In this document: positions 1 to 58,331 of the stretch, piece by piece
How positions within the stretch are numbered: position 1 is the stretch's first letter
Layout: the number at the start of each line of letters is the position of its first letter
From: a virus
Virus record (IMG/VR): IMGVR_UViG_3300042300_001229
Span: 1-64,000 of that record
Length of the DNA: 64,000 nt
Strand: one strand, 5' to 3'
The notes under the pieces: model-generated
Seen by the model: only the letters and a program-made list of their open reading frames with translations
Databases searched by the model: none
What the model was told of the DNA's origin: nothing
Translations under genes and position numbers: made by a program

Positions 1-333
1 TTCATAAACAAATTATTAAATAAAACATTTTCAACAAAAGACTTTAGTGATAGAATTGTAGGTGGTTATGATTTTGAATGGATTATTACTCAAATGAATT
101 ATCAAGATTTTGATTTCTTTTTGTATGGTCAAACACTACCAGGTGGAACTGTTAGTCTAATTATGATGGATGGTAGAAATCTGACTTTACAGGAAGCTTT
201 AGAAGACGAAGATATTGGTTGGGAAATTCAAGAGGAAGTTAACAACGTTGTTCAGGACTGTATGAACGAAATAATTTTACCGGCCACAGGTTATGATGTA
301 GAAGTTCCGGTTATTTATATTGCAGAAGAATGA
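1..333 (+). CDS. 5'-truncated CDS, unknown protein
   Basis: The reading frame is open from the first base of the window and ends at 333, so this is the C-terminal 110 residues of a longer protein; the ATG at 94 is probably internal. The visible part is acidic, with several Glu/Asp/Ile-rich stretches and no recognised domain. Its stop overlaps the next start by 4 bases (ATGA), which suggests translational coupling with the downstream peptide-bearing genes. Its own N-terminus is outside the window, so I cannot say whether it carries the shared N-terminal peptide. Confidence 0.7.
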   Translation, partial: FINKLLNKTFSTKDFSDRIVGGYDFEWIITQMNYQDFDFFLYGQTLPGGTVSLIMMDGRNLTLQEALEDEDIGWEIQEEVNNVVQDCMNEIILPATGYDVEVPVIYIAEE

Positions 334-716
334 AAATAATAATTTCAGAACGACAACAAAAGTTATTAACCGAGTCAAAAAAACTTGAGTCGGCACAAAA
401 TCTTATTGATCAGGCATTTGAGGAATTAAGAGAAAACTGTGAAAAAAATTGGGTTGAACAATATGCTTGTGATCAAATGGAAACCGTTGAAGAGATTAAA
501 GTTGTTGCATCTGAAAAAGGATCAGCGACCACAAGAGGTCAAAAAACTAATTTTTGGTTGATTGAAGTTGACATATATTATTCATCATTAGGATATACAC
601 CTTTTGAAGATTTTATTTATCAAATCCAATGGGAAGTTAGAGAAATTGTCGGATCAAGAAATATTATTATAACCATCCGAGGTACTATAAACTCAAACAA
701 AGACCTAAACTGGTAA
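330..716 (+). CDS. unknown protein with N-terminal packaging-type peptide
   Basis: 128 residues. It begins MKIIISERQQKLLTESKK, one of the forms of the N-terminal peptide shared across this window (hydrophobic strand, S/T-E, short helix, then LLTES). The rest is an alpha/beta domain with no family I recognise. It is paralogous to the protein at 1602-2291: both follow the peptide with a QNL(I/V)D segment, a Cys-containing helix, a charged strand and a conserved ending around a short 'ExVRxIxG' type helix. Overlaps both neighbours by 1-4 bases, so it is part of one translationally coupled set. I infer that it is a virion-internal protein; the function is unknown. Confidence 0.85.
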   Translation: MKIIISERQQKLLTESKKLESAQNLIDQAFEELRENCEKNWVEQYACDQMETVEEIKVVASEKGSATTRGQKTNFWLIEVDIYYSSLGYTPFEDFIYQIQWEVREIVGSRNIIITIRGTINSNKDLNW

Positions 717-1159
717 TGAAAATAATAATATCAGAATCACAATATAATTTACTTTTAGAATCAAAGTTGAAACAAAATCTTAAACAGGAAATTAAAGATT
801 TTGGAGTAAAAGATACTGCTGAACTTGTTAATGGTTTCGATAATTTAATGGAAATTTTAAACATAAATTCTCCGATGGATTTTTTACATTTGTTTGATGA
901 CTTGGATGTTGTTCAAAGTGAAATGGACCCTGATTGGACTTTATTTCGATATAAACCAAAACATAATTTGATGGTTCACAATAGAAAAAATAGAACTGTT
1001 TTCATTAATTACGAAGAAATTTGGAAACCTTTATTTGATACTGGTCTTTTCGATCCTGACATAAAGGAACTTACAAAAGAGTGGTTGTCTAGTGTCTACA
1101 ACTTAAGGGGAGTCACAACCGAAAGGTTTTATCAAGCTTCTCCATGGTTAGTTGTCTAG
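716..1159 (+). CDS. unknown protein, GG-N-L paralog family, N-terminal peptide
   Basis: 147 residues, starting MKIIISESQYNLLLESKLK. After the peptide comes a domain also present at 30729-31220 and, more distantly, at 20057-20926. Shared features are an 'IKxxG' helix, a (V/G)-G-x-x-N-L segment, an SPM/TPM-x-(F/Y)L-x-LF-(D/N)DL segment, an aromatic strand with RY/FY, and a closing helix ending in (E/D)WL. The last 20 residues are atypical and are explained by a 23-bp direct repeat at the 3' end (see repeat 1084-1173), which seems to have replaced the original C-terminus. Starts 1 base inside the preceding stop. Confidence 0.85.
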   Translation: MKIIISESQYNLLLESKLKQNLKQEIKDFGVKDTAELVNGFDNLMEILNINSPMDFLHLFDDLDVVQSEMDPDWTLFRYKPKHNLMVHNRKNRTVFINYEEIWKPLFDTGLFDPDIKELTKEWLSSVYNLRGVTTERFYQASPWLVV

Positions 1160-1173
1160 TGTCTACAATTTAA
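1084..1173 (+). repeat. 23-bp direct repeat flanking a C-terminal insertion
   Basis: Copies at 1084-1106 and 1151-1173 start GTTGTCTAGTGTCTACAA and differ at one position. The offset is 67 bp, not a multiple of three. In copy 1 the gene's frame reads LSSVYNLRG; the same reading in copy 2 would give LSSVYNLKK and a stop. The 67-bp duplication therefore shifts the frame and gives the gene an altered tail. Confidence 0.8.
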
Positions 1174-1184
1174 AAAAATAGAAT

Positions 1185-1586
1185 ATGAAAATAATAATTA
1201 CAGAATCACAAGTTAGTCTTCTCAAAGAAAATTCCATTGTGGATATGGATCTTCAACAACTATATGACAGGGCCATAAAATTAAAAAAAGTGGTTTCTAA
1301 AAATGTCCAAAGAGAGTTGGAAGATTATTCTTGGTTTGATGGATTACAGGTAAGTATTGATAGAGATTGGGGAGGACTACCTTATTATTTTTTTAACATA
1401 AAAACAAATTTGTCCCTAACAGAGGATGAATTTTATAGTCAAGAATTAGGTGATGAAATTTATGATAAAATTGGTGATGTTTTTGGTCACTTTTTTCCAG
1501 AGGTTAATAAAAATACACAATATAACTTAACTGGTGTTTGGGATGCTTCTATAACAGACAGACATGGTTATGTAACTCACATTTAG
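1185..1586 (+). CDS. unknown protein with N-terminal packaging-type peptide
   Basis: 133 residues, beginning MKIIITESQVSLLKENS; the putative processing point follows LKE. After the peptide there is a helical segment (DLQQLYDRAIKL) and an aromatic-rich domain containing WFDGL and PYYFF. No domain recognised. It lies 25 bases after the previous stop; AT-rich leader with no Shine-Dalgarno sequence. Probably co-transcribed with its neighbours. Confidence 0.8.
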   Translation: MKIIITESQVSLLKENSIVDMDLQQLYDRAIKLKKVVSKNVQRELEDYSWFDGLQVSIDRDWGGLPYYFFNIKTNLSLTEDEFYSQELGDEIYDKIGDVFGHFFPEVNKNTQYNLTGVWDASITDRHGYVTHI

Positions 1587-1589
1587 AAC

Positions 1590-1597
1590 TATTTATT
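1590..1597 (+). promoter_or_regulatory. late-type motif TATTTATT
   Basis: TATTTATT ends 4 bases before the start at 1602; same motif and position as before most peptide-bearing genes in the window. Confidence 0.45.
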
Positions 1598-1601
1598 TAA
1601 T

Positions 1602-2291
1602 ATGAAAATCATCATTTCAGAAGATCAACAAAAAGTATTACTTGAATCAAAACAAATTGATTCAGTTCAAAATCTTGTTGATATGGCGGTTGAAGATTAT
1701 GTTGAAGGTTGTTCTAGAAGACATGCATTTAGAAATCTTGAACTTGCACTTTGTAAAGGGTTCAAGAACGGAACAACAAAACTTAAAGTTTTAGAAGTAA
1801 AAAAAATACACGACCATTATGATGTAAAACTTTCTATACACACAGATCAAGAATGGTTTCAAAGAGCGGACTTTCAAGATTTTGAAATCACATTAATACT
1901 TAAAGTTGCAAATATAATAGGAACACACAAATATGGGTTTGATATTAAGGACATGGAATTAAATGATCGTGATGAAGAAGTGATTTCTGAAAGTCGTGAA
2001 ATGAGTACTAAACTAAGACGAAGATTTAGTGAACTTGAAAAAATTGGAGAGTCAATAGAGTATCAAACTGAAATACAAGATCCATGTGATTTTGAGGATG
2101 AGAATGACTATGCTGACTATTGTATTGGACAAGGACTTTATTTTTATTACAACGATGATGAAGATGAAGACTATGAATATCCACCAGACGAAATGGTTGA
2201 GGTTAGAGATGAGGTAGAAGAATATTTAGAAGAAAAATACCACAATTATTTAGTAGATATTTATAATGACTTAGTAGAAAACTGTAACTAA
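1602..2291 (+). CDS. unknown acidic protein, paralog of 330-716, N-terminal peptide
   Basis: 229 residues, beginning MKIIISEDQQKVLLESKQ. Residues 1-130 parallel the protein at 330-716 (QNLVDMAVED, Cys-containing helix, strand pair, VANIIG). The C-terminal 90 residues are an extra, strongly acidic extension with a DDEDEDYEY run and a final helical segment. The paralog lacks this extension, so the gene looks like a duplication with an added tail. Its stop overlaps the next ATG (TAATG). Confidence 0.85.
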   Translation: MKIIISEDQQKVLLESKQIDSVQNLVDMAVEDYVEGCSRRHAFRNLELALCKGFKNGTTKLKVLEVKKIHDHYDVKLSIHTDQEWFQRADFQDFEITLILKVANIIGTHKYGFDIKDMELNDRDEEVISESREMSTKLRRRFSELEKIGESIEYQTEIQDPCDFEDENDYADYCIGQGLYFYYNDDEDEDYEYPPDEMVEVRDEVEEYLEEKYHNYLVDIYNDLVENCN

Positions 2292-2596
2292 TGAAAATAC
2301 TATTAACAGAAAAACAGGCCGATAGAATATTCAACGAAAAGATTGAATGCGAAAAGTGCGAACACTCTTGGAAAAAAGAAAATGATGACAAACATCCATT
2401 TCTTTGTCATGATTGTGGGTGGGACCAAAAAAAAGGTCTTTACGATAAAGAAAACTTATTTAAGTTTTGGAAAGGAAAATTATCTAAAGAACCAATTGAA
2501 GAAAAGTGGTCTGAAAAATATAAAAGATCAATCAACTGTAATAACCCAAAAGGTTTTAGTCAAAAGGCTCATTGTCAAGGGAGAAAGAAAAAATAA
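2291..2596 (+). CDS. zinc-ribbon protein with basic C-terminal CNNPKG module
   Basis: 101 residues. Short N-terminal peptide MKILLTEKQADRIFNEK, then a zinc ribbon with two CxxC pairs (CEKC about residues 20-23, CHDC about 36-39), then a basic tail with the pattern KRSINCNNPKG...AHCQGRKKK. The tail belongs to a group of small Cys/Arg/Lys-rich C-terminal modules that recur here on different proteins (compare 21985-23229 and 44627-44998). It likely binds nucleic acid or structures a packaged protein; this is inference. Follows the previous gene with a 1-base overlap. Confidence 0.85.
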   Translation: MKILLTEKQADRIFNEKIECEKCEHSWKKENDDKHPFLCHDCGWDQKKGLYDKENLFKFWKGKLSKEPIEEKWSEKYKRSINCNNPKGFSQKAHCQGRKKK

Positions 2597-2597
2597 A

Positions 2598-8518: not shown

Positions 8519-9436
8519 ATGAAAGTTTCACTTACAGAAGAACAATTTCAAAGAATCCAAACTAAATTCGTTTATGAAAGTATTATAGATGACATGGTGT
8601 TCAAACTATCATTAATCATAGAGAATGATGGTAAAACCGAACCAGACATGGAATGGGACTTTGAAAATGTTAAAAAGGATATTGATTTAGCAAAATCTTG
8701 GGTTCAAACAAAAGAAGATGCCAAAGAGTTTTTACAGACTTTGTCTAATAAAATAAAAAACCTACCTTCTCAAATTAAAAGAAAAATTATCAAATATGTG
8801 ATTTTTTCTTTAATTGGTCTTATTAGTATTGGACAAATAAAAAATTATTTAGAACCACCACTTGAAACTGCAGTTAAACAAGAAAAAGAAATTATTAAAA
8901 ATGTCGTTAAGGATTTAAGGATTAGAAAGTCATCAGACAAATTATTAAATCATTTAAAATGGGAAGAAGGTTCAATAATCCATAAAGGTGAACCAGTATT
9001 AACGGCTTATAATCTTGGTGATGGTGCAAAAACAATTGGTTATGGTCATGCTGTGTTTCCTGATGAAGAAGAATCGTTTGAATTTCTTCCAAGATATAAT
9101 AAAATCATTTCAGGTAAAACCAAAATCACAAAAGAACAAGCAGAAACACTACTTAAAGACGATATTAAAGAGGCAGAAAGTATTATCAATAGAATACTAG
9201 ATCAGTGGGAAGAACAAGGAATTACGCCACCAATAACTCAAAGTATGTATGATGCAATGGTGTCTATGGCATACAACATGGGACCTGGTATTAGAACATC
9301 CGATTTTATCCAATATGTTAAACGAGGTGATTTGGAAGGGGCAAAAAAGGAAATACTAAACACAAGTTCTCACATGTTTAACGAATACCCTGGTTTGAAA
9401 ACAAGACGAGAAAGAGAATATAAAATGTTTGGGTAA
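8519..9436 (+). CDS. GH24-type phage lysozyme with N-terminal peptide and membrane segment
   Basis: 305 residues. An N-terminal segment MKVSLTEEQFQRIQTKF resembles the shared peptide. It is followed by a helical linker, one hydrophobic segment at about 92-109 (YVIFSLIGLISIGQI) and a C-terminal T4/P22-type lysozyme domain from about 137. That domain shows the catalytic Glu in LKWEEGS, the Asp/Thr segment LGDGAKTIGYGHA, and the helix SMYDAMVSMAYNMGPG; it ends TRREREYKMFG, typical of GH24 C-termini. Family function: hydrolysis of the MurNAc-GlcNAc bond. The peptide and membrane segment suggest a virion-borne or membrane-linked lysin rather than a simple soluble endolysin. Overlaps the next start (TAATG). 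Confidence 0.9.
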   Translation: MKVSLTEEQFQRIQTKFVYESIIDDMVFKLSLIIENDGKTEPDMEWDFENVKKDIDLAKSWVQTKEDAKEFLQTLSNKIKNLPSQIKRKIIKYVIFSLIGLISIGQIKNYLEPPLETAVKQEKEIIKNVVKDLRIRKSSDKLLNHLKWEEGSIIHKGEPVLTAYNLGDGAKTIGYGHAVFPDEEESFEFLPRYNKIISGKTKITKEQAETLLKDDIKEAESIINRILDQWEEQGITPPITQSMYDAMVSMAYNMGPGIRTSDFIQYVKRGDLEGAKKEILNTSSHMFNEYPGLKTRREREYKMFG

Positions 9437-16324: not shown

Positions 16325-19162
16325 ATGAGAGATTTAATAATTCAAGTAATAACTGAAGAATCTAAAAAACTACTTAAAGAAAGTGGTATCAGAGATATTA
16401 AAAAACTTTCCAAAAGATATCAAATGGCCAAAATCTATTTTCATCAAGATTTAGATGGAGTTACCACGGCATTGGCAATGAAAAACTATTTGGAAAACAA
16501 CGGAATCAAAGTTGTTGATGCCGAAATTATTCAATATGGATCAAAAGAGTTTGCAATTCATAAACCTGAAGGTGAAGGTGATATAATGCCAGTCTTAGTG
16601 GATTTTGCTCACGGTAAACCGATGTTTGTAATTCACACAGATCACCACGACACTCAAGCTGGTGTAGAACAGGGAACATCAACAAACTTCAAACCATCAA
16701 GATCGAATGTTGAAACAATTTCACAATCAATTTCACCAAGAGATATTTTTAGTCAAGACGATATCGAAACAATTTCTATGATTGACTCAGCAGATTTTGC
16801 AAAACATGATATTACTCCACAACAAGTTTTGAAATATCTATTCCAAGTGGATAAAACAAAAGGAGTTAAAGAAAATAAAAAAATGATGGGACTTGTTGCT
16901 AACAAGTTATTATTAGCGTTTAAAAACAAACCTGGGTTTTTGAAAAAGTTAGTTATGGATGCAAAACCATCACTTCAGAGTATTTTATTAAATATAAAAG
17001 ATATAATGGAAAAAGAAGGTTATGCGTCAATAGACCAATTGATAAAAAACCAAGAGTCCTATATTGAATCAAGAAAAGAAAAAGGTGTTACTTATGAAGA
17101 TGGTATTATTTCACAATATACATTAGGACCAACGCAAAAATCAGGTGGATATGATCGTTACACACCATTCATCAATCATCCTGACGCTGAGTTCTTAGTG
17201 ACAGGACTTCCAATGGGAATGGTTCAAGCATCTTGTAATCCATATAAAAAAGAAAGAGCGTTAAAGGGTGTTGATTTAGGTGAAATAAAAAATGAGGTAT
17301 TAGAAAAGTTTAGACCTGAATTAGAAAAACAAAGAATTTCATTTGGAACACTTAAAAGAATATCAGAAATGGACTCTGATAAAACTTCAGTTGGATTTAC
17401 ATTTAAAGACTTTTTAGCAATATATGGAAATTCACCATCTTTGAAGATTTATGGGACAGAAAAACTTGAAAAATATCTTGATTACATGTCAAAAAAACTT
17501 TTCAAATCAATACCTGCGGAAGATAGAAAAGTATTTAACAAGGCTTCTGTAAATGGTTATGATGTTATTATGGCTAATTCAGGAGGACATAAATGTATTA
17601 CAAATATTTCTGGTATTAACTATCTATACTCTAATTCTAAGTTCCAAGAACCTGAACAAAGAGTTAGAGAATCTTATGTTGATTTGTTAAAAGACATTCA
17701 GGCTGAGTTTGTAAAAACTTTAAAAGAAAAAATAAAGTCTTCCACCAAAATACAAGAAAAATACATTACTAAAAAAAAAATATTAAGTAGCCCAACATCA
17801 ATTCTTCTGAACCCAAAAAACCTAATAAAAGAACAAAAAATTAGTTTACCATTAATAATTAAAGATGGATATTCAGCACCCAAAGGGGATGCTGATGCTC
17901 TTCACTCATTTGAAAGAAGAAAAAAAGATGGTTTTGGGGGTAAAATGACAACAAAAATTGGAGAAAAGTTAAAAGAAATTTACAACGCAGGAATCAATCC
18001 CGACGTTGTGAATATAAACATAACAGTAGACTCTAAAAATTATACGGTTCAGTGGGAAGCAACTTTGGATGAAAGTCAAGATGGAAATGCTTACATGGGA
18101 GTTTCAACAAGAGGATCTGCAGGTGGTGGGGCCGATATTAGAGCGTTGGGTCAAGTAGGACCATTAAAAAAAGAATTAGAAAAAATGGGAGCAAGAAACA
18201 TTACACAAGTTTTAGACTTTAATAATAAGTCAGGAGTAAAAATCAGACAATATTTCTTTAAATACACTTTACCTGAAAAATATCCACCACATGAAACATC
18301 AGAAGGTTTATATTCTAAAACGACAGAACCGTCAGTTATTAACTTATCCGACGACAAATCTTTAGAAACAAATCAAGGACAACTTGTTGGTGATATTTTA
18401 AATTTTGGATCGTTGAAGTCTAATCTTAGTCAAATACTTAAAAACAAGATTGGTTCGTTGTTTGGATCCAAAGAAACATCAGATGAGGACGATACTAAAT
18501 CAACACAGACATCAACCGCGACGGTTTCTCAAACATCAGGAAGTGATTCAGATTTTATGGAAATCACAAAAAAAGTGATTGCCAATTTTGAGGGCGGATA
18601 TTGGAACGGATCAACGTCAAAAAATGAGAGCACAAGTAAATTAGGAATTTGTAAAAATCACCCGAAGGGAAGTATGGGTTCATCAACAGAAACTATGTTC
18701 GGGTTAGATAGATATAACGGTAACATAGAAAGCACCCCTGAGGGTAAACAATTTTTTGAAATTATAGACAACCAAAAAGAAGAATTGGGAATGGACGCTT
18801 TTTGTAAAAAATGGAAATGGTTATATCGAGGTGGTGAAAACGAAGAGGAATTAAAAGAATTGGCCGCTAAAATAATGAAAAGATCATTTGATAGAAATAT
18901 GTCAAATTTTGTTAAAGACCAAGAAGTCAAAGACAAAATTATGAAAAACAAAGGGCTTTTGGTTCATATGACTTATGCGTGTTGGAATGGACCTGGTTTC
19001 TTCAAAAAGTTTGCAAATGAATTAACCGATGCCGTAAAACAAGGGAAATCTGACTCAGAGTTGATAGATGTTGCGATTAATTCAAGGGCAAACACAAAAT
19101 TGTTAAATAAAGATAAAGTGGCGGCGGCAATTAAAAATCCCGACGGAATGAAGACCGCTTAA
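16325..19162 (+). CDS. multidomain virion protein: peptide + DHH phosphoesterase + muramidase-like domain
   Basis: 945 residues. The N-terminal peptide is MRDLIIQVITEESKKLLKES. A DHH-type phosphoesterase domain follows (QDLDG at 41-45, HTDHHDT at 104-110, SADFAKHD), the family that includes RecJ and nanoRNase/c-di-AMP hydrolases. Next come a middle region with a Gly-rich strand segment (AYMGVSTRGSAGGGADIRAL) and a Ser/Thr-rich linker. The C-terminal domain of about 190 residues has FEGGYWNG near residue 756, ETMFGLDRYNG and MTYACWNGPGFF; it looks like a GH108/N-acetylmuramidase-type lysozyme. Peptide plus muramidase suggests a packaged, injected enzyme acting on cell wall at entry; the DHH part may degrade a host nucleotide signal. 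The DHH call is firm, the muramidase moderate. Confidence 0.85.
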   Translation: MRDLIIQVITEESKKLLKESGIRDIKKLSKRYQMAKIYFHQDLDGVTTALAMKNYLENNGIKVVDAEIIQYGSKEFAIHKPEGEGDIMPVLVDFAHGKPMFVIHTDHHDTQAGVEQGTSTNFKPSRSNVETISQSISPRDIFSQDDIETISMIDSADFAKHDITPQQVLKYLFQVDKTKGVKENKKMMGLVANKLLLAFKNKPGFLKKLVMDAKPSLQSILLNIKDIMEKEGYASIDQLIKNQESYIESRKEKGVTYEDGIISQYTLGPTQKSGGYDRYTPFINHPDAEFLVTGLPMGMVQASCNPYKKERALKGVDLGEIKNEVLEKFRPELEKQRISFGTLKRISEMDSDKTSVGFTFKDFLAIYGNSPSLKIYGTEKLEKYLDYMSKKLFKSIPAEDRKVFNKASVNGYDVIMANSGGHKCITNISGINYLYSNSKFQEPEQRVRESYVDLLKDIQAEFVKTLKEKIKSSTKIQEKYITKKKILSSPTSILLNPKNLIKEQKISLPLIIKDGYSAPKGDADALHSFERRKKDGFGGKMTTKIGEKLKEIYNAGINPDVVNINITVDSKNYTVQWEATLDESQDGNAYMGVSTRGSAGGGADIRALGQVGPLKKELEKMGARNITQVLDFNNKSGVKIRQYFFKYTLPEKYPPHETSEGLYSKTTEPSVINLSDDKSLETNQGQLVGDILNFGSLKSNLSQILKNKIGSLFGSKETSDEDDTKSTQTSTATVSQTSGSDSDFMEITKKVIANFEGGYWNGSTSKNESTSKLGICKNHPKGSMGSSTETMFGLDRYNGNIESTPEGKQFFEIIDNQKEELGMDAFCKKWKWLYRGGENEEELKELAAKIMKRSFDRNMSNFVKDQEVKDKIMKNKGLLVHMTYACWNGPGFFKKFANELTDAVKQGKSDSELIDVAINSRANTKLLNKDKVAAAIKNPDGMKTA

Positions 19163-19176: not shown

Positions 19177-19596
19177 ATGAAACAAAAAATTAGAAAAATA
19201 TTAAAAGAAGAAGACGGGGGACTCAAAGAAAGATTTCTCAGAAATATGAAATCACTTGAGTATATTATTCAAAGTAATGTGAATAATGATATTGAAGAAA
19301 TTGAATTTGTTGATGTTGATTTTTACGAAAGATATAAAGATATCACTGCAACAATTAAAGTCAAATCTTATTGTGAGGATCCTGACATTTATGAATTATC
19401 TACCCAAATGAAAAAAGTTGAAGATCAAATTTACCAAATTATCGGAAAATACGAATTTTCAAAAAACGGTAAATTGAATAAAGTTGATGGTGATAGTTAT
19501 CTCATGTTTTTTGCTATTAAAGTAAATTGGGAAAGTAATAATGGTGAATTATATATTGAATTTTATTTACACCAAGATGATTATAGAACTGAATAA
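19177..19596 (+). CDS. unknown protein with N-terminal peptide (MKQKIRKILKE)
   Basis: 139 residues. Begins MKQKIRKILKEEDGG; putative processing after ILKE. The rest alternates acidic strands and helices (EIEFVDVDFYERYKDITATI, KKVEDQIYQIIGKYEF). No known domain. Starts 14 bases after the polyprotein; its stop overlaps the next ATG by one base. Confidence 0.85.
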   Translation: MKQKIRKILKEEDGGLKERFLRNMKSLEYIIQSNVNNDIEEIEFVDVDFYERYKDITATIKVKSYCEDPDIYELSTQMKKVEDQIYQIIGKYEFSKNGKLNKVDGDSYLMFFAIKVNWESNNGELYIEFYLHQDDYRTE

Positions 19597-20060
19597 TGAG
19601 AAATTTAATTAAACAAATATTAAAAGAAGAAACAAGTCCTGACGATATTCGTAAAGGAATTGACATTACCGTTATAATGTTAAAAAAACAATATCCTTTT
19701 GTTGTGGGTTGGGAATATTCTGATTCACCCGATAAATGGACTTATAAAATATATATCGACCTTGAAATTGATCACTCGAAAATGATGGAGTTTTATGGTT
19801 TGAAACCACACCCAAAATGGTATAATTTTTTGAAAAAGGATATCGAAACACGAGAAAAATACCCATATCCGTATTCTCAAACAAATTATGAGGAAGATGA
19901 AAACTTTGATACCGATGAATATAGAATATTACAAAATGACTTAGAGAGTTTTTATGAGGAAATGATACCAAACAAACTCAAAATGAAACGATCACGGGCT
20001 GTTTTTAATCAAAATGAACCTAAAGATTTGGGTGTTGATAATTACATTTTTGTTAAATGA
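19596..20060 (+). CDS. unknown protein with N-terminal peptide (MRNLIKQILKE)
   Basis: 154 residues. Begins MRNLIKQILKEETSPDD. The body is an alpha/beta domain with aromatic-rich strands (WEYSDSPDKWTYKIYIDLEI). No recognised family. Overlaps both neighbours (1 and 4 bases), the same tight coupling as the rest of the 19-23 kb run. Confidence 0.85.
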   Translation: MRNLIKQILKEETSPDDIRKGIDITVIMLKKQYPFVVGWEYSDSPDKWTYKIYIDLEIDHSKMMEFYGLKPHPKWYNFLKKDIETREKYPYPYSQTNYEEDENFDTDEYRILQNDLESFYEEMIPNKLKMKRSRAVFNQNEPKDLGVDNYIFVK

Positions 20061-38522: not shown

Positions 38523-39035
38523 ATGGGAAGAAAAATTAGACTTACAGAATCTGAATTTCATTCTTTAGTAAGAAGACTTGTTCGTGAGGCTGAAGAAGAA
38601 ATGATGTCAATTACAATGGATGATGAAGAATCCGAAGGAATGTCAAAAGAAGACACCGTTCATGCGGTTGCTGACTTCTTTAAAAGAAAATTAAGAAGAT
38701 TAGATAGTGACGAAATCGAAGAACTTGAGGATATGGTTGTTAATTCTGAAACAGAAGATCTAACTGAAATGTTTTTAAGAGAAGACATTTCTGATAGAAA
38801 AAAATCTTTTAAAGAAAAGGCAATGATTCGTGGTGGAATTGGTATGATGGGAGCAGGAATACTTGGAATGATTAGTCAAGCAATGGGTTATACTGATGCT
38901 GGAGACCTTATGATTGCGGTTCACGATTACGTTGACAAAATGGGTGGTGGTCCTGTGAGCACCGCAGTATTAATTGCTGGTTTAGTTATGGCACTTAAAG
39001 GTGCTGCTGACAGAGGCCTTAGAACAGGAAGATAA
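38523..39035 (+). CDS. membrane-active-type protein with canonical N-terminal peptide
   Basis: 170 residues. Begins MGRKIRLTESEFHSLVRRLV then REAEEE; the sequence around RE-A matches the T4 prohead-protease style site. An acidic helical segment follows, then two hydrophobic Gly/Ala/Met-rich helices (MIRGGIGMMGAGILGMISQA, and TAVLIAGLVMALKGAADRGL). It could act on membranes during DNA entry or line the internal core; both are inference. Confidence 0.85.
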   Translation: MGRKIRLTESEFHSLVRRLVREAEEEMMSITMDDEESEGMSKEDTVHAVADFFKRKLRRLDSDEIEELEDMVVNSETEDLTEMFLREDISDRKKSFKEKAMIRGGIGMMGAGILGMISQAMGYTDAGDLMIAVHDYVDKMGGGPVSTAVLIAGLVMALKGAADRGLRTGR

Positions 39036-44044: not shown

Positions 44045-44572
44045 TTAGATTCCTTTAATAAGGTTTATTGATTGTTTTAGGTATTCTTTAGCTCTTGGGG
44101 ACGGAGTATATTCATCATCCTTAGTTTGAAGGTTTAAAACCCTTTCAATGTCCTTAACTAACTCAGTTCCGTGTTCATTTTCTTTATATAACTCGATGAT
44201 CTTATCCATGGCTTTATTGCATTCACCTGTAGTCTCGTCATAATAGTTTTTATTCCTAAACTTATTCAAATGATTCATCATTTCATATGCCAAATGTGTT
44301 CCACCGTCTTTAATGTCTTTAAACAAACGGATATTATTCAAAATCCCTAAAGTATCAACCATAGAGTTAACCCCTGTAATTCTTTTGGTAATCCCTGGTG
44401 TGTATTTATCAAATTCACCCGCTCTCCCGACTATTTCGTCTAGAGGCATAACATTTTCAGGAATACACTTAGGTTTTTCCTTTTTATTTTTTTTTCCTTC
44501 CATTTCGTTTTCTAAAAGAACTTTTCTAATGACTCTATTTAGGTCACGGTTATTAAATTGATTTCGTTTCAT
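44045..44572 (-). CDS. unknown protein with N-terminal peptide, minus strand
   Basis: 175 residues. Begins MKRNQFNNRDLNRVIRKVLL then ENEMEG, the RVIRKVLxE form. A Lys-rich stretch (GKKNKKEKPKCIPE) is followed by a helical body (NSMVDTLGILNNIRLFKDIK; GTELVKDIERVLNL). Shows that the peptide is not limited to plus-strand genes. Cotranscribed with the putative holin. Confidence 0.85.
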   Translation of the reverse strand: MKRNQFNNRDLNRVIRKVLLENEMEGKKNKKEKPKCIPENVMPLDEIVGRAGEFDKYTPGITKRITGVNSMVDTLGILNNIRLFKDIKDGGTHLAYEMMNHLNKFRNKNYYDETTGECNKAMDKIIELYKENEHGTELVKDIERVLNLQTKDDEYTPSPRAKEYLKQSINLIKGI

Positions 44573-44626: not shown

Positions 44627-44998
44627 ATGAAAAATATTAATGACATTATAAGGAAAGTATTGATTGAGTCATTTTTAAGACCTAAGTTTATTTTTGAGGA
44701 TTTCTATGGGTCGGTTGAAGATGTTGATTTTTTAAATGAAGCCGAATATCAAGGAAGAAAAGTTCAACTTGGTAAAATAATGCAGGGTGACGTAAAAAAG
44801 TTTAAGGTTTATGTTAAAAATGACAAAGGTAAAGTTGTTAAAGTTAATTTTGGTTTTGGTGGTAAATCAGCAAAAGGGAAAAGAATGGTTATTAAAAAAA
44901 ATAACCCAGAAAGACGACGATCTTTCAGAGCAAGACACAATTGCGATAATCCTGGACCAAGATGGAAACCAAGATATTGGGCTTGTAGAACTTGGTAA
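44627..44998 (+). CDS. peptide-bearing protein with C-terminal RARHNCDNPG module
   Basis: 123 residues. Begins MKNINDIIRKVLIESFLRPK (cut after VLIE). After a variable region comes a basic domain (VQLGKIMQGDVKKFKVYVKN) and a C-terminal module RRSFRARHNCDNPGPRWKPR followed by YWACRTW. I recall very similar RARHNCxxPGPxWKxRYWSC modules at the ends of proteins in marine T4-like phages, but cannot check it here. Probably virion-internal and nucleic-acid or scaffold binding. Confidence 0.9.
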   Translation: MKNINDIIRKVLIESFLRPKFIFEDFYGSVEDVDFLNEAEYQGRKVQLGKIMQGDVKKFKVYVKNDKGKVVKVNFGFGGKSAKGKRMVIKKNNPERRRSFRARHNCDNPGPRWKPRYWACRTW

Positions 44999-45650: not shown

Positions 45651-46260
45651 ACCTATCTATAATCTTTTTGACTAGCATATAAACAATATGTGATGTAAAA
45701 ATCCCGCCTAAATAGTGTCCTACACCCATCGCTAATAATTTAATTTGTTTTTCACCTATTGATAAATCTGAAAGATCTTTCAATATTGGAACTAATGGGA
45801 CCAAAAACGTGTAGGCGATCATATTAGAGACTTTTGAAAAAGTTAAATTCAAACTTTCTAAAAAACCGAAAAGAGCATCTCTTAAATCATAGGATTTTGA
45901 AAGTGCTCTATCAAAAAACGTAATTAATTTTTTTTCTTTTATTAGTTCTAACACCTCACGTAATTTTTCCTTATTCGAGGAAAAAAAAGTTAAAATTATA
46001 CCAAAAGATATTAGGGTTATGTCTGTTTCTGTTAGGTTTGGATATCTACCACTCATATATTTTGAAACAGGTCCCACAAATCCCCCTATTACAGAACCCC
46101 AAGTTCCCAAAAAAACAAAATCAATTCCAAATTGTTTTTTTACGTCTTCGATAATTTTTTTTGTAAAGTTTTTCGAATTAGTAAAAATATCCGACATGGC
46201 ATTTTCTTTAGATTCTTGTAGAACTTTAATGTATTGCGATTCTGTTAAAATTATATCCAT
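45640..46260 (-). CDS. multi-helix membrane-type protein with N-terminal peptide
   Basis: 206 residues. Begins MDIILTESQYIKVLQESKEN. Then FGIDFVFLGTWGSVIGGFVG, hydrophobic segments (TLISFGIILTFFS; MIAYTFLVPLVPILKDL; GVGHYLGGIFTSHIVYMLV) and a basic end. A membrane-active protein with the packaging-type peptide, like 38523. Its 3' end overlaps the convergent metallopeptidase gene by 11 bases. Confidence 0.8.
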   Translation of the reverse strand: MDIILTESQYIKVLQESKENAMSDIFTNSKNFTKKIIEDVKKQFGIDFVFLGTWGSVIGGFVGPVSKYMSGRYPNLTETDITLISFGIILTFFSSNKEKLREVLELIKEKKLITFFDRALSKSYDLRDALFGFLESLNLTFSKVSNMIAYTFLVPLVPILKDLSDLSIGEKQIKLLAMGVGHYLGGIFTSHIVYMLVKKIIDRFKS

Positions 46261-46372: not shown

Positions 46373-46987
46373 ATGAATTCATACTTTTTTAAAATGAACA
46401 AACAAGAAAGAGAGAACATCTTGGATCAACATAAACATGTATATGATGGTTATGTAACAAAATACAATCAACAATCAAACCAATATCCTCTTTATGTTCA
46501 GGATTTGGCAAATGATAAAAATGGTATTACGGTAAATAATAAAGGATTGGTTAAGACTTATACTAACGTAGGTATTAATGAAGGTCTTTTAGATATGATT
46601 GCCGATGGGCCTATGGACTTAGAAAACGGAACGATAGATATTGATAGTGTGAGTCAAACAAATTCAATCAATAAAAAAATGTTGGACCAATATTATCCAT
46701 CACCCAACGAGGAAGAAGAAGAATTTGTAACCTATGGTAAAATCTCAGATGAAGAGGACATACCAAACACAAGCTTACAAAACTTAGATAGGTTTGAATA
46801 TGATATTGACGAACTTGAGGACTATTCAGCGAGCAAAGATTATGACAATACAGACGAAGAATATTTAACTTACAGTGAAAGACTACAAGATACACTACAA
46901 AATGTTGATGAAGAAATACTACCTGAATTAGTTCAACAATTGTATGAGTCGAGACACATGTTCGAAAGATTCAAAAAATACAACTAA
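46373..46987 (+). CDS. acidic protein with NKQERENIL-type leader
   Basis: 204 residues. Leader MNSYFFKMNKQERENILDQH...YDGY is the same kind as at 35059 (LSENEKNRILNMHK). The rest is acidic and apparently extended (PSPNEEEEEFVTYGKISDEE; ELEDYSASKDYDNTDEEYL) with a helical end (EILPELVQQLYESRHMFERF). Possibly a disordered core or scaffold-like protein. Confidence 0.8.
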   Translation: MNSYFFKMNKQERENILDQHKHVYDGYVTKYNQQSNQYPLYVQDLANDKNGITVNNKGLVKTYTNVGINEGLLDMIADGPMDLENGTIDIDSVSQTNSINKKMLDQYYPSPNEEEEEFVTYGKISDEEDIPNTSLQNLDRFEYDIDELEDYSASKDYDNTDEEYLTYSERLQDTLQNVDEEILPELVQQLYESRHMFERFKKYN

Positions 46988-49593: not shown

Positions 49594-50886
49594 ATGGAAA
49601 ATTTAAAAGAACAACTTAACAGAATCAAATTATTATACAACTATAATTTGAACGAAACTTATGAAGAAAACAAAATTAAACAGTCGTCCAAAAACTATTT
49701 GAATGAGGCTGCTGCCGAGGCCCTAATCGCAGCCAAGGAGTTGGGGAACGCAGAAAGAGCCATCCTACATAATAGTTTAGAAACTGTAGTTGCCGATATA
49801 GGTGCAGTCACTATTAAAAATGAGAAAGGAATTTTTTCATCAACAAAAAATGTCGAAGAAATAGTGTTGGCGATGAAAGAAGGAAGAATTGCGGGTGCTG
49901 AGTTAGGTAATATTGGTAAGTCTCTCTTAAAAAGCCCGGCAACAAGCACAGAGATTAAATCATTAGCAGCCGAACTGGTAACATCATTTCCATCTTTTGA
50001 ACAAAAATATGGTATGTTAACAAGAGAACAAGCCGTAAACGAACTAATGAATGGTCCTGGAAAATATACAAAAGGTGAAGCAGAAACTCTTATGAATAAG
50101 TATAAGTCGAGAAAAAGTCGAGTTGATCCAATCGAGCCCCCTAAGACAGGTGAAGGACCGAAACCAAGTGAAGGACCGAAACCAAGTGAAGGACCGAAAC
50201 CAAGTGAAGGACCTGTAAATCAAAATAATATCAACCTCAATATAACTAACCAAGTTCAATCCGAGGGATTTAAAATTGCGGAAGAGTATGGACCTCACAT
50301 GGATGATGCAGCAAGAAAAAGAAAATGGAAAGACTCTCAAGATTGGTTAAAAAATGACGAAAGAGGGTTTATGGAAGAATATAATAGAGTTAGTAAGGGA
50401 TCAAGACTTAGAAGAGGTCTTAATTGGGGTCGAAAAATTATGTCTTGGGGAACTCTTTGGGGAATATTTAAAATTGCGGGAATAGGTCTAACTTTATGGG
50501 CCGTATATAGTTTATTTACAGATAGTGGATGGAAAGTTAAAGACGATGATAAAATAGATGATGATGACGGCGGAGGCGGCGGCGGAGACGATGACGGAGG
50601 AGGTGGAGGATCACCTGATGACGACCAAAACCAAGGAGTGTTGATCGACGTTGATGGTAATAAATATATAGAATGCACACCACCTTATTATAAGGGTTGT
50701 GTCGCTAAAAAAGGAAATGACGACATAAGAAAGGCTCAAGATTGTTTGGGTGTAACACCTAATGGTTTCTTTAATAAAGAAACAGAAGACGCATTATATA
50801 AAAAAATAAACAAGAAAAGTTTTAGTCCATCAGATATGCCATCGATATGTGCGACGAGTTATGGGGCTAGTAGATTCTCTTATTAA
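49594..50886 (+). CDS. large membrane/peptidoglycan-binding-like protein with N-terminal peptide
   Basis: 430 residues. Leader MENLKEQLNRIKLLYNYNLN then E, the NLxEQLxRI form. Helical part, a PKPSEG linker with three 18-bp repeats, a helix near 294-310 (WGIFKIAGIGLTLWAVYSLF), an acidic Asp/Gly linker (DDDDGGGGGGDDDGGGGG), and a C-terminal peptidoglycan-binding-like domain (NDDIRKAQDCLGVTPNGFFN). Topology suggests a protein spanning the membrane with a wall-binding head. Six bases after the previous stop. Confidence 0.85.
   Translation: MENLKEQLNRIKLLYNYNLNETYEENKIKQSSKNYLNEAAAEALIAAKELGNAERAILHNSLETVVADIGAVTIKNEKGIFSSTKNVEEIVLAMKEGRIAGAELGNIGKSLLKSPATSTEIKSLAAELVTSFPSFEQKYGMLTREQAVNELMNGPGKYTKGEAETLMNKYKSRKSRVDPIEPPKTGEGPKPSEGPKPSEGPKPSEGPVNQNNINLNITNQVQSEGFKIAEEYGPHMDDAARKRKWKDSQDWLKNDERGFMEEYNRVSKGSRLRRGLNWGRKIMSWGTLWGIFKIAGIGLTLWAVYSLFTDSGWKVKDDDKIDDDDGGGGGGDDDGGGGGSPDDDQNQGVLIDVDGNKYIECTPPYYKGCVAKKGNDDIRKAQDCLGVTPNGFFNKETEDALYKKINKKSFSPSDMPSICATSYGASRFSY
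50151..50212 (+). repeat. 18-bp tandem repeat encoding GPKPSE
   Basis: Three units of GAAGGACCGAAACCAAGT in the linker of 49594-50886. Confidence 0.85.
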
Positions 50887-50900: not shown

Positions 50901-52664
50901 ATGGATATTTCAAAAAAACTAACACAAATCCTATTAGAACAAGAAGCTAGTAAAGAAACTAAAGGAGTTAATGTCTCCGATACAGGTAAAGTATTGCAAA
51001 ATACTATTAATTTTTGCCAAGGTATATCTTTTCTAAAAGATAAGGCGATTAAGTCTATGAGTAGAACATCACCAAAAGATACAACTAGCGGACAACCATT
51101 AATGGCTAAATTCAAAGATGTTTATAACTCGGGTAAAGAAAGTGTTGCCTTTGCTTCCGGAGACGATGGTAGTGGAAATATTATAGTTGTTTTTGGTATG
51201 CAAGATCCGAACTTAACAGATCAAGCATTATTAGGATACAGAGTTACAACAGGAGCAGTTGCCGACAGGATAACTGACGGTATTGCAAAAGGGTGTCAAT
51301 ATTTACAAAAAATAGAAGATGTGGGACAAGCACAACTTTCGGCTTATGATAGATCTAGACTTGATGCTTTTATTAAAAAACAAGGTGGTTTATTTACCTC
51401 AACTGATCCGAAAGATCCGTTGAACTATAGAGAATATAAAATGAAGAATCTCAAAGACGCTGACGGATTACCTTTATTACAAAGTCCAGGTGAAGGTATT
51501 GTTTGGAAAAAAGTCGAACAAGATCAAGGAACTATGGGTGATGTTGCAGGTGAAGTTGATGACTTTATGAAAGAACAAGGATTTACAAAAAACAAACCAA
51601 AGGCAGGAACCGATGAAGCAAATTATGGGTTTTATCTAAAAGACGTTCAAGGAGATTTACCATCATTAAGTATTGATCCTGATATCAGAAATACAGGAAT
51701 ATATTTCCCTGACCCAAGTTATACAAGTGAATACGGTGGTTCAGTTTTGACTCCTGATAGAAAGGCTTGTAAATCTGTAATTAAAAGACTTTACGATTGC
51801 AAAACAAAAACAAACAAAGCAGGATGTTCCGCAAATCTATTTAGAGATAAGTTTATTGCTCTTTCGTGTGGTGATAAAAACTTTATCGAAGGTCCTTTTG
51901 GAAAAGGAGATGAATATAAGGCAATTTTTTCAGATCCAGGTCCATACGGATTGGCAAATCTAAACAGAGCAAGAGGTAAAGCGAAGTATTCTTCAATGAC
52001 AGAATCTCTTAACAAAAAAATCAACAAAAGATTAAACGAAGATTTCAAAAGACTTTCTTTTAATAAAAAAAAAATTCAATTTGACAATCAACTAGTTGAG
52101 TCATTAGCAGATCAGTTGGTTGTAAGTGCATTATTCGACTTACAAAAAGATTTCAAAAAATTCCAAAGATTGGATGAAAATGCAATAACCGATTTTCTAT
52201 CTAGTGCTGGAAGTAAAGCTTTAGAAGGCGGAAAAAACTTAGTTAGTAATTTAGGAAGTAAATTGGGAACGGGTCTAAGTCAAGGATTTAAAGAGACGAT
52301 CGCAAAAAAAATAATTGGCTGGGCAGGTTTCGACCCAAATGGTTATTTCGCTCTTTTAATCGCTAATATTTTTGCAAATCTTGAATTTAAGGATTATATG
52401 AATTTTATTAGTGATTGTGAAAAGTTTAGTGAAATTATTACAAAATCAGCGTTAGAGGCGTGGTTAGATAAAGCAGTTGTATCAATGAAAGGTGGTGAAG
52501 CTGGAACTATATCAACTTTTGTTTATACGGCCCTAAAAAATACCGTAACTGAGGCAGCAGCAAACACACCAGCATTTAGAGCATTAGAAGGGATGGCAAC
52601 CAAAATTGTTTGTGGAATTATAGAAGGTGTAAAAGAGAGCGGGATTATTACAAGTTTTTTCTAA
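50901..52664 (+). CDS. large virion-type protein with N-terminal peptide
   Basis: 587 residues. Leader MDISKKLTQILLEQEASKET. N-terminal half is a mixed domain (SVAFASGDDGSGNIIVVFGM; RVTTGAVADRITDGIAKGCQ), then a Cys region (KRLYDCKTKTNKAGCSANLF), a helical stretch, and Gly/Ala/Phe-rich helices at the end (IIGWAGFDPNGYFALLIANI). Size and peptide suggest a major packaged or structural protein. Third of a coupled trio with 48113 and 49594. Confidence 0.8.
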   Translation: MDISKKLTQILLEQEASKETKGVNVSDTGKVLQNTINFCQGISFLKDKAIKSMSRTSPKDTTSGQPLMAKFKDVYNSGKESVAFASGDDGSGNIIVVFGMQDPNLTDQALLGYRVTTGAVADRITDGIAKGCQYLQKIEDVGQAQLSAYDRSRLDAFIKKQGGLFTSTDPKDPLNYREYKMKNLKDADGLPLLQSPGEGIVWKKVEQDQGTMGDVAGEVDDFMKEQGFTKNKPKAGTDEANYGFYLKDVQGDLPSLSIDPDIRNTGIYFPDPSYTSEYGGSVLTPDRKACKSVIKRLYDCKTKTNKAGCSANLFRDKFIALSCGDKNFIEGPFGKGDEYKAIFSDPGPYGLANLNRARGKAKYSSMTESLNKKINKRLNEDFKRLSFNKKKIQFDNQLVESLADQLVVSALFDLQKDFKKFQRLDENAITDFLSSAGSKALEGGKNLVSNLGSKLGTGLSQGFKETIAKKIIGWAGFDPNGYFALLIANIFANLEFKDYMNFISDCEKFSEIITKSALEAWLDKAVVSMKGGEAGTISTFVYTALKNTVTEAAANTPAFRALEGMATKIVCGIIEGVKESGIITSFF

Positions 52665-53722: not shown

Positions 53723-53836
53723 ATGGAAGACATACATCAACAAATTCACGAGGAGTTTATTAACTCTGAAGATTATGATAAGTATCTTTATGATATTTAT
53801 AATTATGAACCTCAACGAACAGATCCACAGGATTAA
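53723..53836 (+). CDS. small acidic ORF overlapping the GNAT start
   Basis: 37 residues: MEDIHQQIHEEFINSEDYDK. Preceded by a late-type motif, but it overlaps the next gene's start by 32 bases. May be a regulatory leader ORF. Confidence 0.4.
   Translation: MEDIHQQIHEEFINSEDYDKYLYDIYNYEPQRTDPQD
53795..53802 (+). promoter_or_regulatory. late-type motif TATTTATA
   Basis: Two bases before the GNAT ATG at 53805. Confidence 0.45.
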
Positions 53837-54275
53837 AAACTTGATGTATGAACAACCACAAGTCCAAATTGTATATAAAGGTGATTTAGATGGATACTTT
53901 GGAAAAAACATTGAGTTAACGTCTCCTGATAATAATACTATTGGTTTTATCCATATATCCAAAATGAATGATGGTGAAAATTTAGATCTGAACTTCAATA
54001 CTTTATATGACGAATCCAAGTTTCAAACCATTCCATTAAATTATGATAATTGTCTTTTTATGCACACTTTAGAGGTGGATGAAAACCATAGAAAACAGGG
54101 ACATGGGTCACACTTATTAGATTTGGCACATGAATTTGCAAAAAATAACGGATATAATTATCTATCTTTTATTTCTGATAATGATAATGAAATTGCAAAC
54201 AACATTTATCAAAAAAGAGGTTATAAGTCATTAAATTCTAATGACAATTCTAGTTTTTATTTTGTTGAATTGTAA
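53805..54275 (+). CDS. GNAT acetyltransferase with N-terminal packaging-type peptide
   Basis: 156 residues from ATG 53805: MNLNEQIHRIKNLMYEQPQV, the same leader as 24110. A GNAT domain follows with MHTLEVDENHRKQGHGSHLL (acetyl-CoA loop RxxGxG) and ISDNDNEIANNIYQKRGYKS. If the leader targets the capsid, this would be an acetyltransferase delivered into the host with the DNA, as T4 delivers Alt. The longer reading from 53775 would place residues before the motif and is rejected. Confidence 0.88.
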   Translation: MNLNEQIHRIKNLMYEQPQVQIVYKGDLDGYFGKNIELTSPDNNTIGFIHISKMNDGENLDLNFNTLYDESKFQTIPLNYDNCLFMHTLEVDENHRKQGHGSHLLDLAHEFAKNNGYNYLSFISDNDNEIANNIYQKRGYKSLNSNDNSSFYFVEL

Positions 54276-56914: not shown

Positions 56915-56921
56915 CTACATG

Positions 56922-56994: not shown

Positions 56995-57000
56995 CAAAAT

Positions 57001-57073: not shown

Positions 57074-57081
57074 CAATATTT

Positions 57082-57153: not shown

Positions 57154-57161
57154 CCAAATAA

Positions 57162-57234
57162 GGACCGGTAGCTCAGTTGGTAGAGCGCTAGACTGAAGAT
57201 CTAGGCGTGGATGGTTCGATTCCGTCCCGGTCCA
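57162..57234 (+). tRNA. tRNA-Phe(GAA)
   Basis: CTAGA-CTGAAGA-TCTAG; acceptor GGACCGG/CCGGTCC. Confidence 0.95.
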
Positions 57235-57246
57235 CAAACAATTAAA

Positions 57247-57254
57247 AAGGAGAT
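57247..57254 (+). promoter_or_regulatory. Shine-Dalgarno sequence of the YkuK-like gene
   Basis: AAAGGAGA immediately upstream of the ATG at 57258; most neighbours lack any such element. Confidence 0.6.
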
Positions 57255-57257
57255 AAA

Positions 57258-57713
57258 ATGAACCGAGTATTTAGAAAGGTTGATGGAAATCCAGTTTCTG
57301 ACATATCAAAACACACTTTGGATATTTTAAATGAATGTCCTTATGTTGAAATTCATGTTGGAACTGATTCTCAAAACCACAGAAGATCGACTGTATATGT
57401 AACCGCAATAGCATATCGGTATGGAAACCGCGGAGTTCACTATATATATCACAAACATAAGGTTAAAAAAATTCGTGATAAGTGGACAAGGTTATGGAAT
57501 GAAGCCGATTATTCAATTGAGGTTGCAAACTTTTTAACAAGTAAGGTGAATGTTAAACTTGAGATTGATCTTGATTATAACGCTCAAGAACAACACTTTA
57601 GTTCAAAGTTGGTTGGTCCTGCGGTTGGGTGGGTTAATTCTTTGGGTTATAAGGCGAATATTAAACCTGATAACCAAATTGCAACAAAGGCGGCAGATTT
57701 TCATTGTCGTTAA
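57258..57713 (+). CDS. YkuK/DUF458-type RNase H-fold protein
   Basis: 151 residues. VEIHVGTDSQNHRRSTVYVT (RNase H-like first strand with Asp), GVHYIYHKHKVKKIRDKWTR, NEADYSIEVANFL, a strand with EIDLDYNAQEQHFSSKLVGP, and the DUF458 ending IKPDNQIATKAADFHCR. Likely nuclease-fold protein of unknown substrate. It has a clear Shine-Dalgarno AAGGAG 6 bases before the ATG, rare in this window, which may point to a different source. Confidence 0.85.
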   Translation: MNRVFRKVDGNPVSDISKHTLDILNECPYVEIHVGTDSQNHRRSTVYVTAIAYRYGNRGVHYIYHKHKVKKIRDKWTRLWNEADYSIEVANFLTSKVNVKLEIDLDYNAQEQHFSSKLVGPAVGWVNSLGYKANIKPDNQIATKAADFHCR

Positions 57714-57715
57714 TT

Positions 57716-57787
57716 GGTCGGGTGTCTGATAGGTAAAGTCCAGATCTGCAAAATCTCGGTATGTGGGTTCGAATCCCACCCTGACCT
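57716..57787 (+). tRNA. tRNA-Cys(GCA)
   Basis: AGAT-CTGCAAA-ATCT; acceptor GGTCGGG/CCTGACC. Confidence 0.92.
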
Positions 57788-57795
57788 CAACAAAT

Positions 57796-57869
57796 GCCCC
57801 TATGGCGGAATTGGCATACGCATGTGATTTAGGATCACAATTTTGCAGGTTCGAGTCCTGCTGGGGGCA
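57796..57869 (+). tRNA. tRNA-Leu(TAG)
   Basis: TGTGA-TTTAGGA-TCACA; acceptor GCCCCTA/TGGGGGC. The variable region is short for tRNA-Leu. Confidence 0.88.
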
Positions 57870-57930
57870 CAAAAAATAGTATATATACTAAATTTTAGAT
57901 TTTTTCTAAAATAATAACTTTTTGATCTCA

Positions 57931-57938
57931 TATTTATT
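57931..57938 (+). promoter_or_regulatory. late-type motif TATTTATT
   Basis: Three bases before the ATG at 57942. Confidence 0.45.
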
Positions 57939-57941
57939 AAT

Positions 57942-58331
57942 ATGAAAAAAATAATAAGAATTACAGAATCTGATTTGACTAACATAGTTAAACGAGTGAT
58001 TAAAGAAAATGAAAATAATAGATTAGGTAAAGTTTATTTCAATAACGAGAATTATCCTGGATTTATGTATGTTAAAGAAATATTACCTAAATATCAAATG
58101 TATTGGGTTGGGACTATGACAAATGAAGTATTACCTACTGAATTAATAAAAGATGATGATATGGATATCTATTGGTTAGAATCACCCGATGGTAAAACAT
58201 TTGGTTACGAACTTTTTGAAGATGATTTAAAAGGTAAAAAATATTTAGTTTTAGATTTAGTTGACCCACAAGAAATTGAGAAATATCTAAGAAATGGCGG
58301 TGAATGGTTCCCAAGTCACTACGAGGCGTAA
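57942..58331 (+). CDS. unknown protein with canonical N-terminal peptide
   Basis: 129 residues. Begins MKKIIRITESDLTNIVKRVI then KENEN, the clearest consensus copy. The body looks like a small beta barrel (LGKVYFNNENYPGFMYVKEI) ending GGEWFPSHYEA. It lies inside the tRNA array with its own late motif, so it is expressed separately from the tRNAs. Confidence 0.88.
   Translation: MKKIIRITESDLTNIVKRVIKENENNRLGKVYFNNENYPGFMYVKEILPKYQMYWVGTMTNEVLPTELIKDDDMDIYWLESPDGKTFGYELFEDDLKGKKYLVLDLVDPQEIEKYLRNGGEWFPSHYEA

Follow-up and report, generated by a model that had tools for sequence, protein, structure and literature searches.

The internal proteins of phage T4 reach the prohead core by means of an N-terminal propeptide of 10–19 residues, the capsid-targeting sequence (CTS), which the gp21 protease cuts after L/I-x-E; passages of PMC9026906 assign targeting mainly to residues 4 and 7 and processing to residues 8 and 10. 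According to passages of PMC3012670, the T-even internal proteins are varied defence proteins in which the targeting sequence alone is conserved. The head proteins of phiKZ and SPN3US likewise carry N-terminal propeptides that a gp21-related protease removes by cutting behind x-E (PMC10052503 and PMC9026906, in part), although the motif is A-x-E or S/A-x-E and all but two of the SPN3US N-terminal propeptides exceed 100 residues (PMC10052503, in part). We analysed the first 64,000 bases (hereafter the window) of the 70,579-base virus record IMGVR_UViG_3300042300_001229, in which some 30 unrelated proteins begin with one of a small set of short peptides (hereafter tags). Sequence comparisons make it quite probable that these tags are an expanded family of T4-type capsid-targeting propeptides, cut by a gp21 homologue, with which tens of proteins would be loaded per virion.

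The resemblance to the T4 CTS, carried by IPI, IPII, IPIII and Alt, lies in a short N-terminal peptide borne by various proteins, an end in hydrophobic-x-E (hxE), a gp21-family protease and a gp23-type capsid protein. T4 differs in having a handful of tagged proteins, versus tens in each genome here, with tags of about five classes; its CTS of 10–19 residues compares with 22 residues in class A (defined below), and the residue that follows the end (P1') is mostly Q or N here. The same function is inferred for tens of proteins per genome from the agreement of the tags with T4 in position, length and ending and from the accompanying types of protease and capsid protein. The principle is already that of T4; the scale, the several classes per phage, the lineage-specific tags and the occurrence of different tags on one body would be the new part. 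We did not meet these four in the literature searched, which lacked most subscription journals, and this absence is weak evidence given that even the T4 tag string gave no match.

All 32 starts listed in the preliminary description proved to be open reading frames (31 ATG and one GTG, at 20929). Residues 2–25 were compared without gaps with the window genes and with genes of at least 80 residues from three related genomes (G022, G017 and G026), pairs with blastp-similar bodies being excluded; an internal segment of the same proteins and 49 other window genes of at least 80 residues served as controls, and genes broken at piece borders were left out of the counts. At score 38 an N-terminal partner having an unrelated body was found for 29 of the 32 listed proteins versus 3 of 32 for their own internal segments, and the other window genes gave 11/49 (N-terminal) and 5/49 (internal). 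At the laxer score of 34 every listed N-terminus was partnered (internal segments, 7/32) with a high background in the other genes (17/49 N-terminal, 16/49 internal); proteins 34651, 36462 and 38129 have a single partner each, and only at this score. Eight non-listed genes had more than one partner at score 34, seven of which resemble signal peptides or membrane starts whereas one, 32445, resembles an overlooked tag. The shared N-termini are real, and the claim that about 30 unrelated proteins carry a common N-terminal peptide is borne out.

An hxE ending within residues 9–32 is present in 31 of the 32 listed proteins and in 24 of the 49 other genes. By reading, the one listed protein that lacks it is 46373. 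The three tag classes first proposed are better divided into about five: A (TESDLTRIVKRVIxE), A' (MKIIITESQ...), B (MxxLIxQILKE), C (NLxEQIxRIxxMM...xE) and D (EEKxRI...). Their description as related short helices held for class A, which is amphipathic, and was not shown for the remaining classes. The tags of the window are as follows, each (bar that of 46373 and the last) written up to its putative cut.

330..374 (+), class A' tag MKIIISERQQKLLTE, protein 330-716
716..760 (+), class A' tag MKIIISESQYNLLLE, protein 716-1159; body akin to 30729 (class A)
1185..1229 (+), class A' tag MKIIITESQVSLLKE, protein 1185-1586
1602..1646 (+), class A' tag MKIIISEDQQKVLLE, protein 1602-2291
2291..2338 (+), A'-like tag MKILLTEKQADRIFNE, protein 2291-2596
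8519..8578 (+), A'-like tag MKVSLTEEQFQRIQTKFVYE, lysozyme (PF00959, residues 161-300)
16325..16381 (+), class B tag MRDLIIQVITEESKKLLKE, 945-residue protein; homologues otherwise tagged in G022, G017, G026, LR745206 and LR756502
19177..19209 (+), class B tag MKQKIRKILKE
19596..19628 (+), class B tag MRNLIKQILKE
20057..20089 (+), class B tag MRELIRYILKE; body akin to 30729
20929..20970 (+), class B-like tag MNQLRQHIKNVLVE, GTG start
21985..22023 (+), class B tag MDLKQHIKNILKE
24110..24166 (+), class C tag MNLQEQISRIQEMMGVINE
30729..30794 (+), class A tag MKKIVSITESQLTNIIKQVLKE
31322..31390 (+), A'/A hybrid tag MKIIITEDQYGQLTNLVKRVIRE
33234..33299 (+), class A tag MKKIVRLSESDLTRVVRRVINE
33953..34015 (+), class D tag MKHLLNDLSNEEKNRIREQYE
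34651..34725 (+), weak tag MYLNKRKTQNIQKSNLILEQRYLKE, one partner
35059..35151 (+), class D-like tag MKKNLFVLSENEKNRILNMH...NYVFE
35975..36031 (+), class D-like tag MKRLIITEDEKKRIKLLYE
36462..36506 (+), weak tag MFTIKKRNLLNLISE, one partner
36962..37021 (+), class A variant MKNNLTESDINRIVFDVINE
38129..38173 (+), weak tag MKINEELNQIKYLLE, one partner
38523..38588 (+), class A variant MGRKIRLTESEFHSLVRRLVRE
44510..44572 (-), tag MKRNQFNNRDLNRVIRKVLLE, protein 44045-44572(-); G022 and G026 homologues start differently
44627..44668 (+), class B tag MKNINDIIRKVLIE
46213..46260 (-), class A' tag MDIILTESQYIKVLQE, protein 45640-46260(-)
46373..46432 (+), class D-like start MNSYFFKMNKQERENILDQH; no hxE by reading
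49594..49656 (+), class C tag MENLKEQLNRIKLLYNYNLNE
50901..50939 (+), class B-like tag MDISKKLTQILLE
53805..53852 (+), class C-like tag MNLNEQIHRIKNLMYE, GNAT acetyltransferase (PF00583, residues 42-140)
57942..58007 (+), class A tag MKKIIRITESDLTNIVKRVIKE
32445..32471 (+), probable extra A'-type start MKIIISKDQ, absent from the preliminary list; 14 partners at score 34

The sequences themselves display five features: unrelated bodies carry common tags, the protein rather than the DNA is under selection, conservation stops at hxE, one body may have different tags, and a protease and capsid protein of the T4 type are encoded in one phage. Given that a 140,128-base record, G004, is 100% identical to the record of the window over all 70,579 bases, we treated G004 as the phage of the window. 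It encodes a gp21-family prohead protease (PF03420, E 8.2e-24, above the curated cut-off; phrog_207, head maturation protease, 4.5e-43), as the preliminary description had predicted for the rest of the genome. The gene lies about 21 kb past the end of the 70.6-kb record, which itself has no PF03420 match. A large terminase (TerL) and a capsid protein of the gp23 type (phrog_138, 2.9e-66) are encoded in G004 as well, and between the capsid protein and protease genes lies that of an acidic 494-residue protein with no PHROG match, a candidate for the core or scaffold protein to which the tags would bind. PF03420 is present in 12 of 20 tagged records of at least 69 kb, chosen by us among the class A loci listed, and in 9 of the 10 that exceed 100 kb.

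The capsid protein carries sites of the same type. Eleven capsid sequences (three of them alike over the stretch compared) have the N-terminal hxE sites ALLE6/S, VIKE23/D, HLKE44/N (or HIKE44/N), QLYE51/N and LINE60/A, where the slash marks the putative cut. LINE60/A is kept in all 11, ahead of the part that aligns with mature gp23; the gp23 chains in PDB have 521 (precursor) and 456 (mature) residues, and capsid residue 73 aligns to mature gp23 residue 28 in a weak first piece (10.9 bits). We favour LINE60/A as the likely end of the capsid propeptide because the arrangement ENQ..hhxE/A recurs in Flavobacterium phage immuto (IVSE/A) and in the huge phage LR756508 (LLKE/A). Two further huge phages, LR756502 and LR745206, have QINE/N and SINE/N, respectively, at about the same position.

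At least 120 viral contig stretches contain class A, whose 22-residue consensus is MKK(I/V)(I/V)RLTESDLTRIVKRVI-x-E, and an exact pattern scan of a cellular genome collection gave no matches. The 145 class A proteins compared fall into 97 body clusters (blastp, E 1e-3). When only the core (to about residue 16) was specified, residue 22 was E in 28 of 30 proteins from five records and in 126 of 130 from other loci, against a background of 0.069. Information content is 3.0–4.3 bits at positions 1–20, 1.5 at position 21, 1.6 at position 23 and 0.2–0.9 later, the set having been picked with the core, E9 and E22 in the pattern, which makes these invariant by construction. The 47 exact copies of TESDLTRIVKRVI are written in 42 different DNA spellings; it is the peptide, not the DNA, that is conserved. 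Within the five records hxE follows the selected part by no more than 17 residues in 30/30 class A, 15/16 class B, 10/10 class C and 6/7 class D proteins; the gp21 motif L/I-x-E stands at the tag end in classes A, B and C and in part of A' (20/26). Regular expressions, which counted A' by its first nine residues only, marked as tagged 26 of 205 genes in G004, 53 of 413 in G022, 17 of 279 in G017 and 16 of 230 in G026, and these are low estimates as some tagged proteins (e.g., TERDL variants) are missed. The same patterns begin at 1/455 internal Met codons in G004 and 5/1179 in G022, with rates of 0.1 to 0.4% over the four genomes.

One body may carry different tags. The 16325 family starts with ...LLKE/SGIRDI in the window, MVMRKNLILE/SGLRDI in G022, MKKIISE/GGIRNI in G017 and MKKILKE/TGLRDI in G026, and with MISKYNQFINE/EVGLRNI and MLRKYGQFINE/EVGFKNL in the 640-kb phages LR745206 and LR756502, whose starts resemble that of the T4 CTS. 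Across these six phages most BLAST alignments of the family begin at hxE or a few residues away; a PDB search with the 945-residue protein gave nothing useful. SAM-lyase-type proteins start with ...KKIISE/TSLSRIHRHI (class A) in one contig and with MSKQMREMINKFGNVLNE/SSLNRVHSFI in another, proteins 716 (A') and 20057 (B, score 97) have bodies akin to that of 30729 (class A), and the 44045 family has three different starts. The proposed analogy with the T4 CTS thus gains support from the gp21-family protease, the hxE sites of the capsid protein, the different tags on one body and the T4-like starts of the 16325 homologues.

Repeated starts of other kinds occur in more distant phages. Among genes of at least 80 residues, and with no tag pattern specified, pairs with unrelated bodies that are alike at the N-terminus versus internally numbered 193 vs 4 in G022, 39 vs 2 in G004, 48 vs 0 in G017 and 39 vs 0 in G026. 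The same count gave 17 vs 1 in immuto (signal peptides among them), 88 vs 0 in 41 kb of LR756508 and 24 vs 0 in 72 kb of LR756502. In 100 kb of T4 it gave 1 vs 0, for IPII with IPIII, whose common start is the CTS (PMC9026906, in part), and in 50 kb of phiKZ 0 vs 0, that is, no common N-terminal tag. A tblastn search of named phages with a 22-residue tag found no match, nor did one with 50901, and the nearest relatives were reached through the protease and capsid protein. Immuto (NC_055915; host Flavobacterium sp. LMO8), LR756508, LR756502 and LR745206 all have a gp23-type capsid protein above the cut-off and a match to the gp21-type protease, which is above the cut-off in two. Each has its own repeated N-terminal starts, many of which end in hxE by eye: FDLKKFLVENKLT... 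in immuto, KLRxIIREEI... in LR756508 (13/56 genes) and KYxxF-x-E in LR756502 (17/111 genes; internal Met, 1/325) and LR745206 (3/54). In immuto, an isolated phage, we found by eye FDLKKFLVENKLT... on gp003, gp076, gp077 and gp092, KKQILSEQFKRMQxLAGIITES on gp083 and gp230, and KKSxLxxxIxEEL on gp072, gp080, gp094 and gp095; the passages of PMC7077304 seen mention neither immuto nor mass spectrometry. The LR756508 (484 kb) protease gene, 156507-158102 (L210:4505), is one 574-residue frame with PF03420 in two pieces about 1 kb apart and, by eye, appears to be interrupted by an intein-like insert. The reference RM378 of the Far-T4 phages, uncultivated aquatic T4 relatives in five clades known through gp23, gp20 and gp17 (PMC4360716, in part), is among the matches of the capsid protein; the passages seen of that paper mention no tag or internal-protein system.

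Several observations weigh against capsid targeting by these tags. PF03420 was lacking from 8 of the 20 tagged records, which are possibly fragments. For G026, the sole record above 100 kb without it, a comparison with the G022 genes for terminase, portal-like and scaffold-like proteins and protease found no match (E 1e-8), and a capsid search of it gave no Gp23 match, just 54 residues at 33% identity to the capsid protein; this record probably lacks the head module. The protease match is below the cut-off in both 640-kb phages, and the pair count for 41 kb of LR745206 was 0 vs 0. The capsid cut site is itself a prediction, HLKE44/N (HIKE in one) being about equally conserved and also fitting by its distance to the gp23 alignment, and P1' is A in all 11 capsid sequences but mostly Q or N in the 145 class A proteins (Q 54, N 34, D 12, E 11). 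Neither the capsid site nor the tag junctions are fully sharp, which lowers confidence slightly. Class A' is loose at its end, with hxE within 17 residues in only 20 of 26 (five records), and of 13 differently started pairs just 3 have an alignment that sets in a few residues ahead of hxE, the others being aligned into the tag. No specific avoidance of [LI]xE was evident in tagged bodies (observed/expected 1.02 vs 1.14 for untagged), the control [LI]xxE being equally lowered. Finally, signal peptides likewise produce similar N-termini.

The tags might instead remain uncut and serve as docking helices with a destination elsewhere in the phage or host (the tail, the outer capsid, a replication site or a membrane), in which case E would belong to the helix end. 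The last 15 residues of class A tags are strongly amphipathic (mean helical hydrophobic moment 0.635 vs 0.298 for shuffled sequences), although P was below 0.02 for this class only and single tags of the other classes were all above 0.05 (0.06 for two B tags, 0.10–0.45 for the rest). The dissimilar P1' residues of the tags and the capsid protein also fit such helices. However, P2 is variable and P1 is E in 154 of 160 proteins, as in a protease site, the MKKILKE and MKKIISE starts of the 16325 family retain little beyond hxE, and a prohead protease and an hxE-bearing capsid protein are encoded by the same phage, all of which make uncut helices unlikely. Functionless remnants of duplication or recombination at gene starts would account for the similar tags on the neighbours 330, 716, 1185 and 1602, yet the 97 body clusters and the near-invariant end position point to selection and distant phages put other tags on homologous bodies; we give this explanation very little credence.

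The explanation to which we assign the lowest likelihood, and which we consider hardly tenable, is that the shared element is a translation or transcription start sequence and the peptide incidental. In its favour, 48 of 89 tagged genes have TATTTAT in the 25 bases upstream of the start codon, compared with 144 of 819 untagged ones of at least 80 residues (Fisher 5e-13; G004, G022, G017 and G026; control ATAAATA, P 0.13), and codon variety within the tag is somewhat below that expected (ratio 0.79). An expression signal would not, however, explain 42 DNA spellings of 47 identical peptides or a peptide conserved to residue 22 and stopping at E. TATTTAT also precedes TerL, and its distances to the start, all genes taken together, have two peaks, at 4–6 and about 13–17 bases; it is possibly a late promoter that gives leaderless transcripts in the short-distance class.

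If the tags are capsid-targeting propeptides, we infer core binding, cleavage, packaging and injection from sequence as follows. The tag (about 10–30 residues, an amphipathic helix in class A) would dock its protein on the prohead core during head assembly, and the gp21-family protease would then cut after the closing hydrophobic-x-E, a site of the type present in the capsid protein, to release the mature protein within the head. When the phage infects, the proteins so released, among them the lysozyme and the GNAT acetyltransferase, SAM-lyase- and amidase-type proteins in relatives and many unknowns, would enter the cell with the DNA.

Pfam gave names to two of the 30 window proteins scanned, the lysozyme and the acetyltransferase, and to six families among 97 class A proteins, and most tagged bodies have no recognised family. 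The tagged domains of relatives include peptidoglycan-binding, LysM, Tae4-type amidase and SAM-lyase-type domains. The loci L203:1363-2037(-), L113:11201 and L200:1369-1986(-) encode a class A-tagged Tae4-type amidase (PF14113) and SAM-lyase-type proteins (PF23780) whose tags are of two kinds; judging from its homology to a match in G009, L113:11201 would be the class A member of the SAM-lyase family. Further SAM-lyase matches in G013 and G017 were below the cut-off. The SAM-lyase-type proteins presumably have a counter-restriction function, and cell-wall and counter-restriction functions would suit injected proteins.

To our knowledge, the proteins carried into the cell by giant phages are known for few isolates. 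We lean, by a small degree, toward the broader proposal that large T4-like and huge phages generally use head-loading tags as a lineage-specific address system, in which each lineage has its own code, bodies switch tags between phages, and the tags reveal the injected set (tens per genome, counter-defence enzymes included). Should the tags prove to be capsid addresses, sequence would reveal which proteins an uncultivated phage injects, and dozens of "hypothetical" genes per genome would become candidate entry and counter-defence effectors. The tags would also provide a natural set of packaging signals and a test of the co-evolution of tag and protease specificity.

Other features of the window were noted. 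Positions 13083-13652 and 40201-42651 encode secreted-looking proteins having a C-terminal domain that by eye resembles the Bacteroidetes type IX secretion/gliding type, which points to a Bacteroidota host. A cluster of sugar acetyl-, amino- and glycosyltransferases, also recognised by eye, occupies 2382-8106, and 25 tRNA genes, one with an unclear anticodon, are predicted within 53488-63387.

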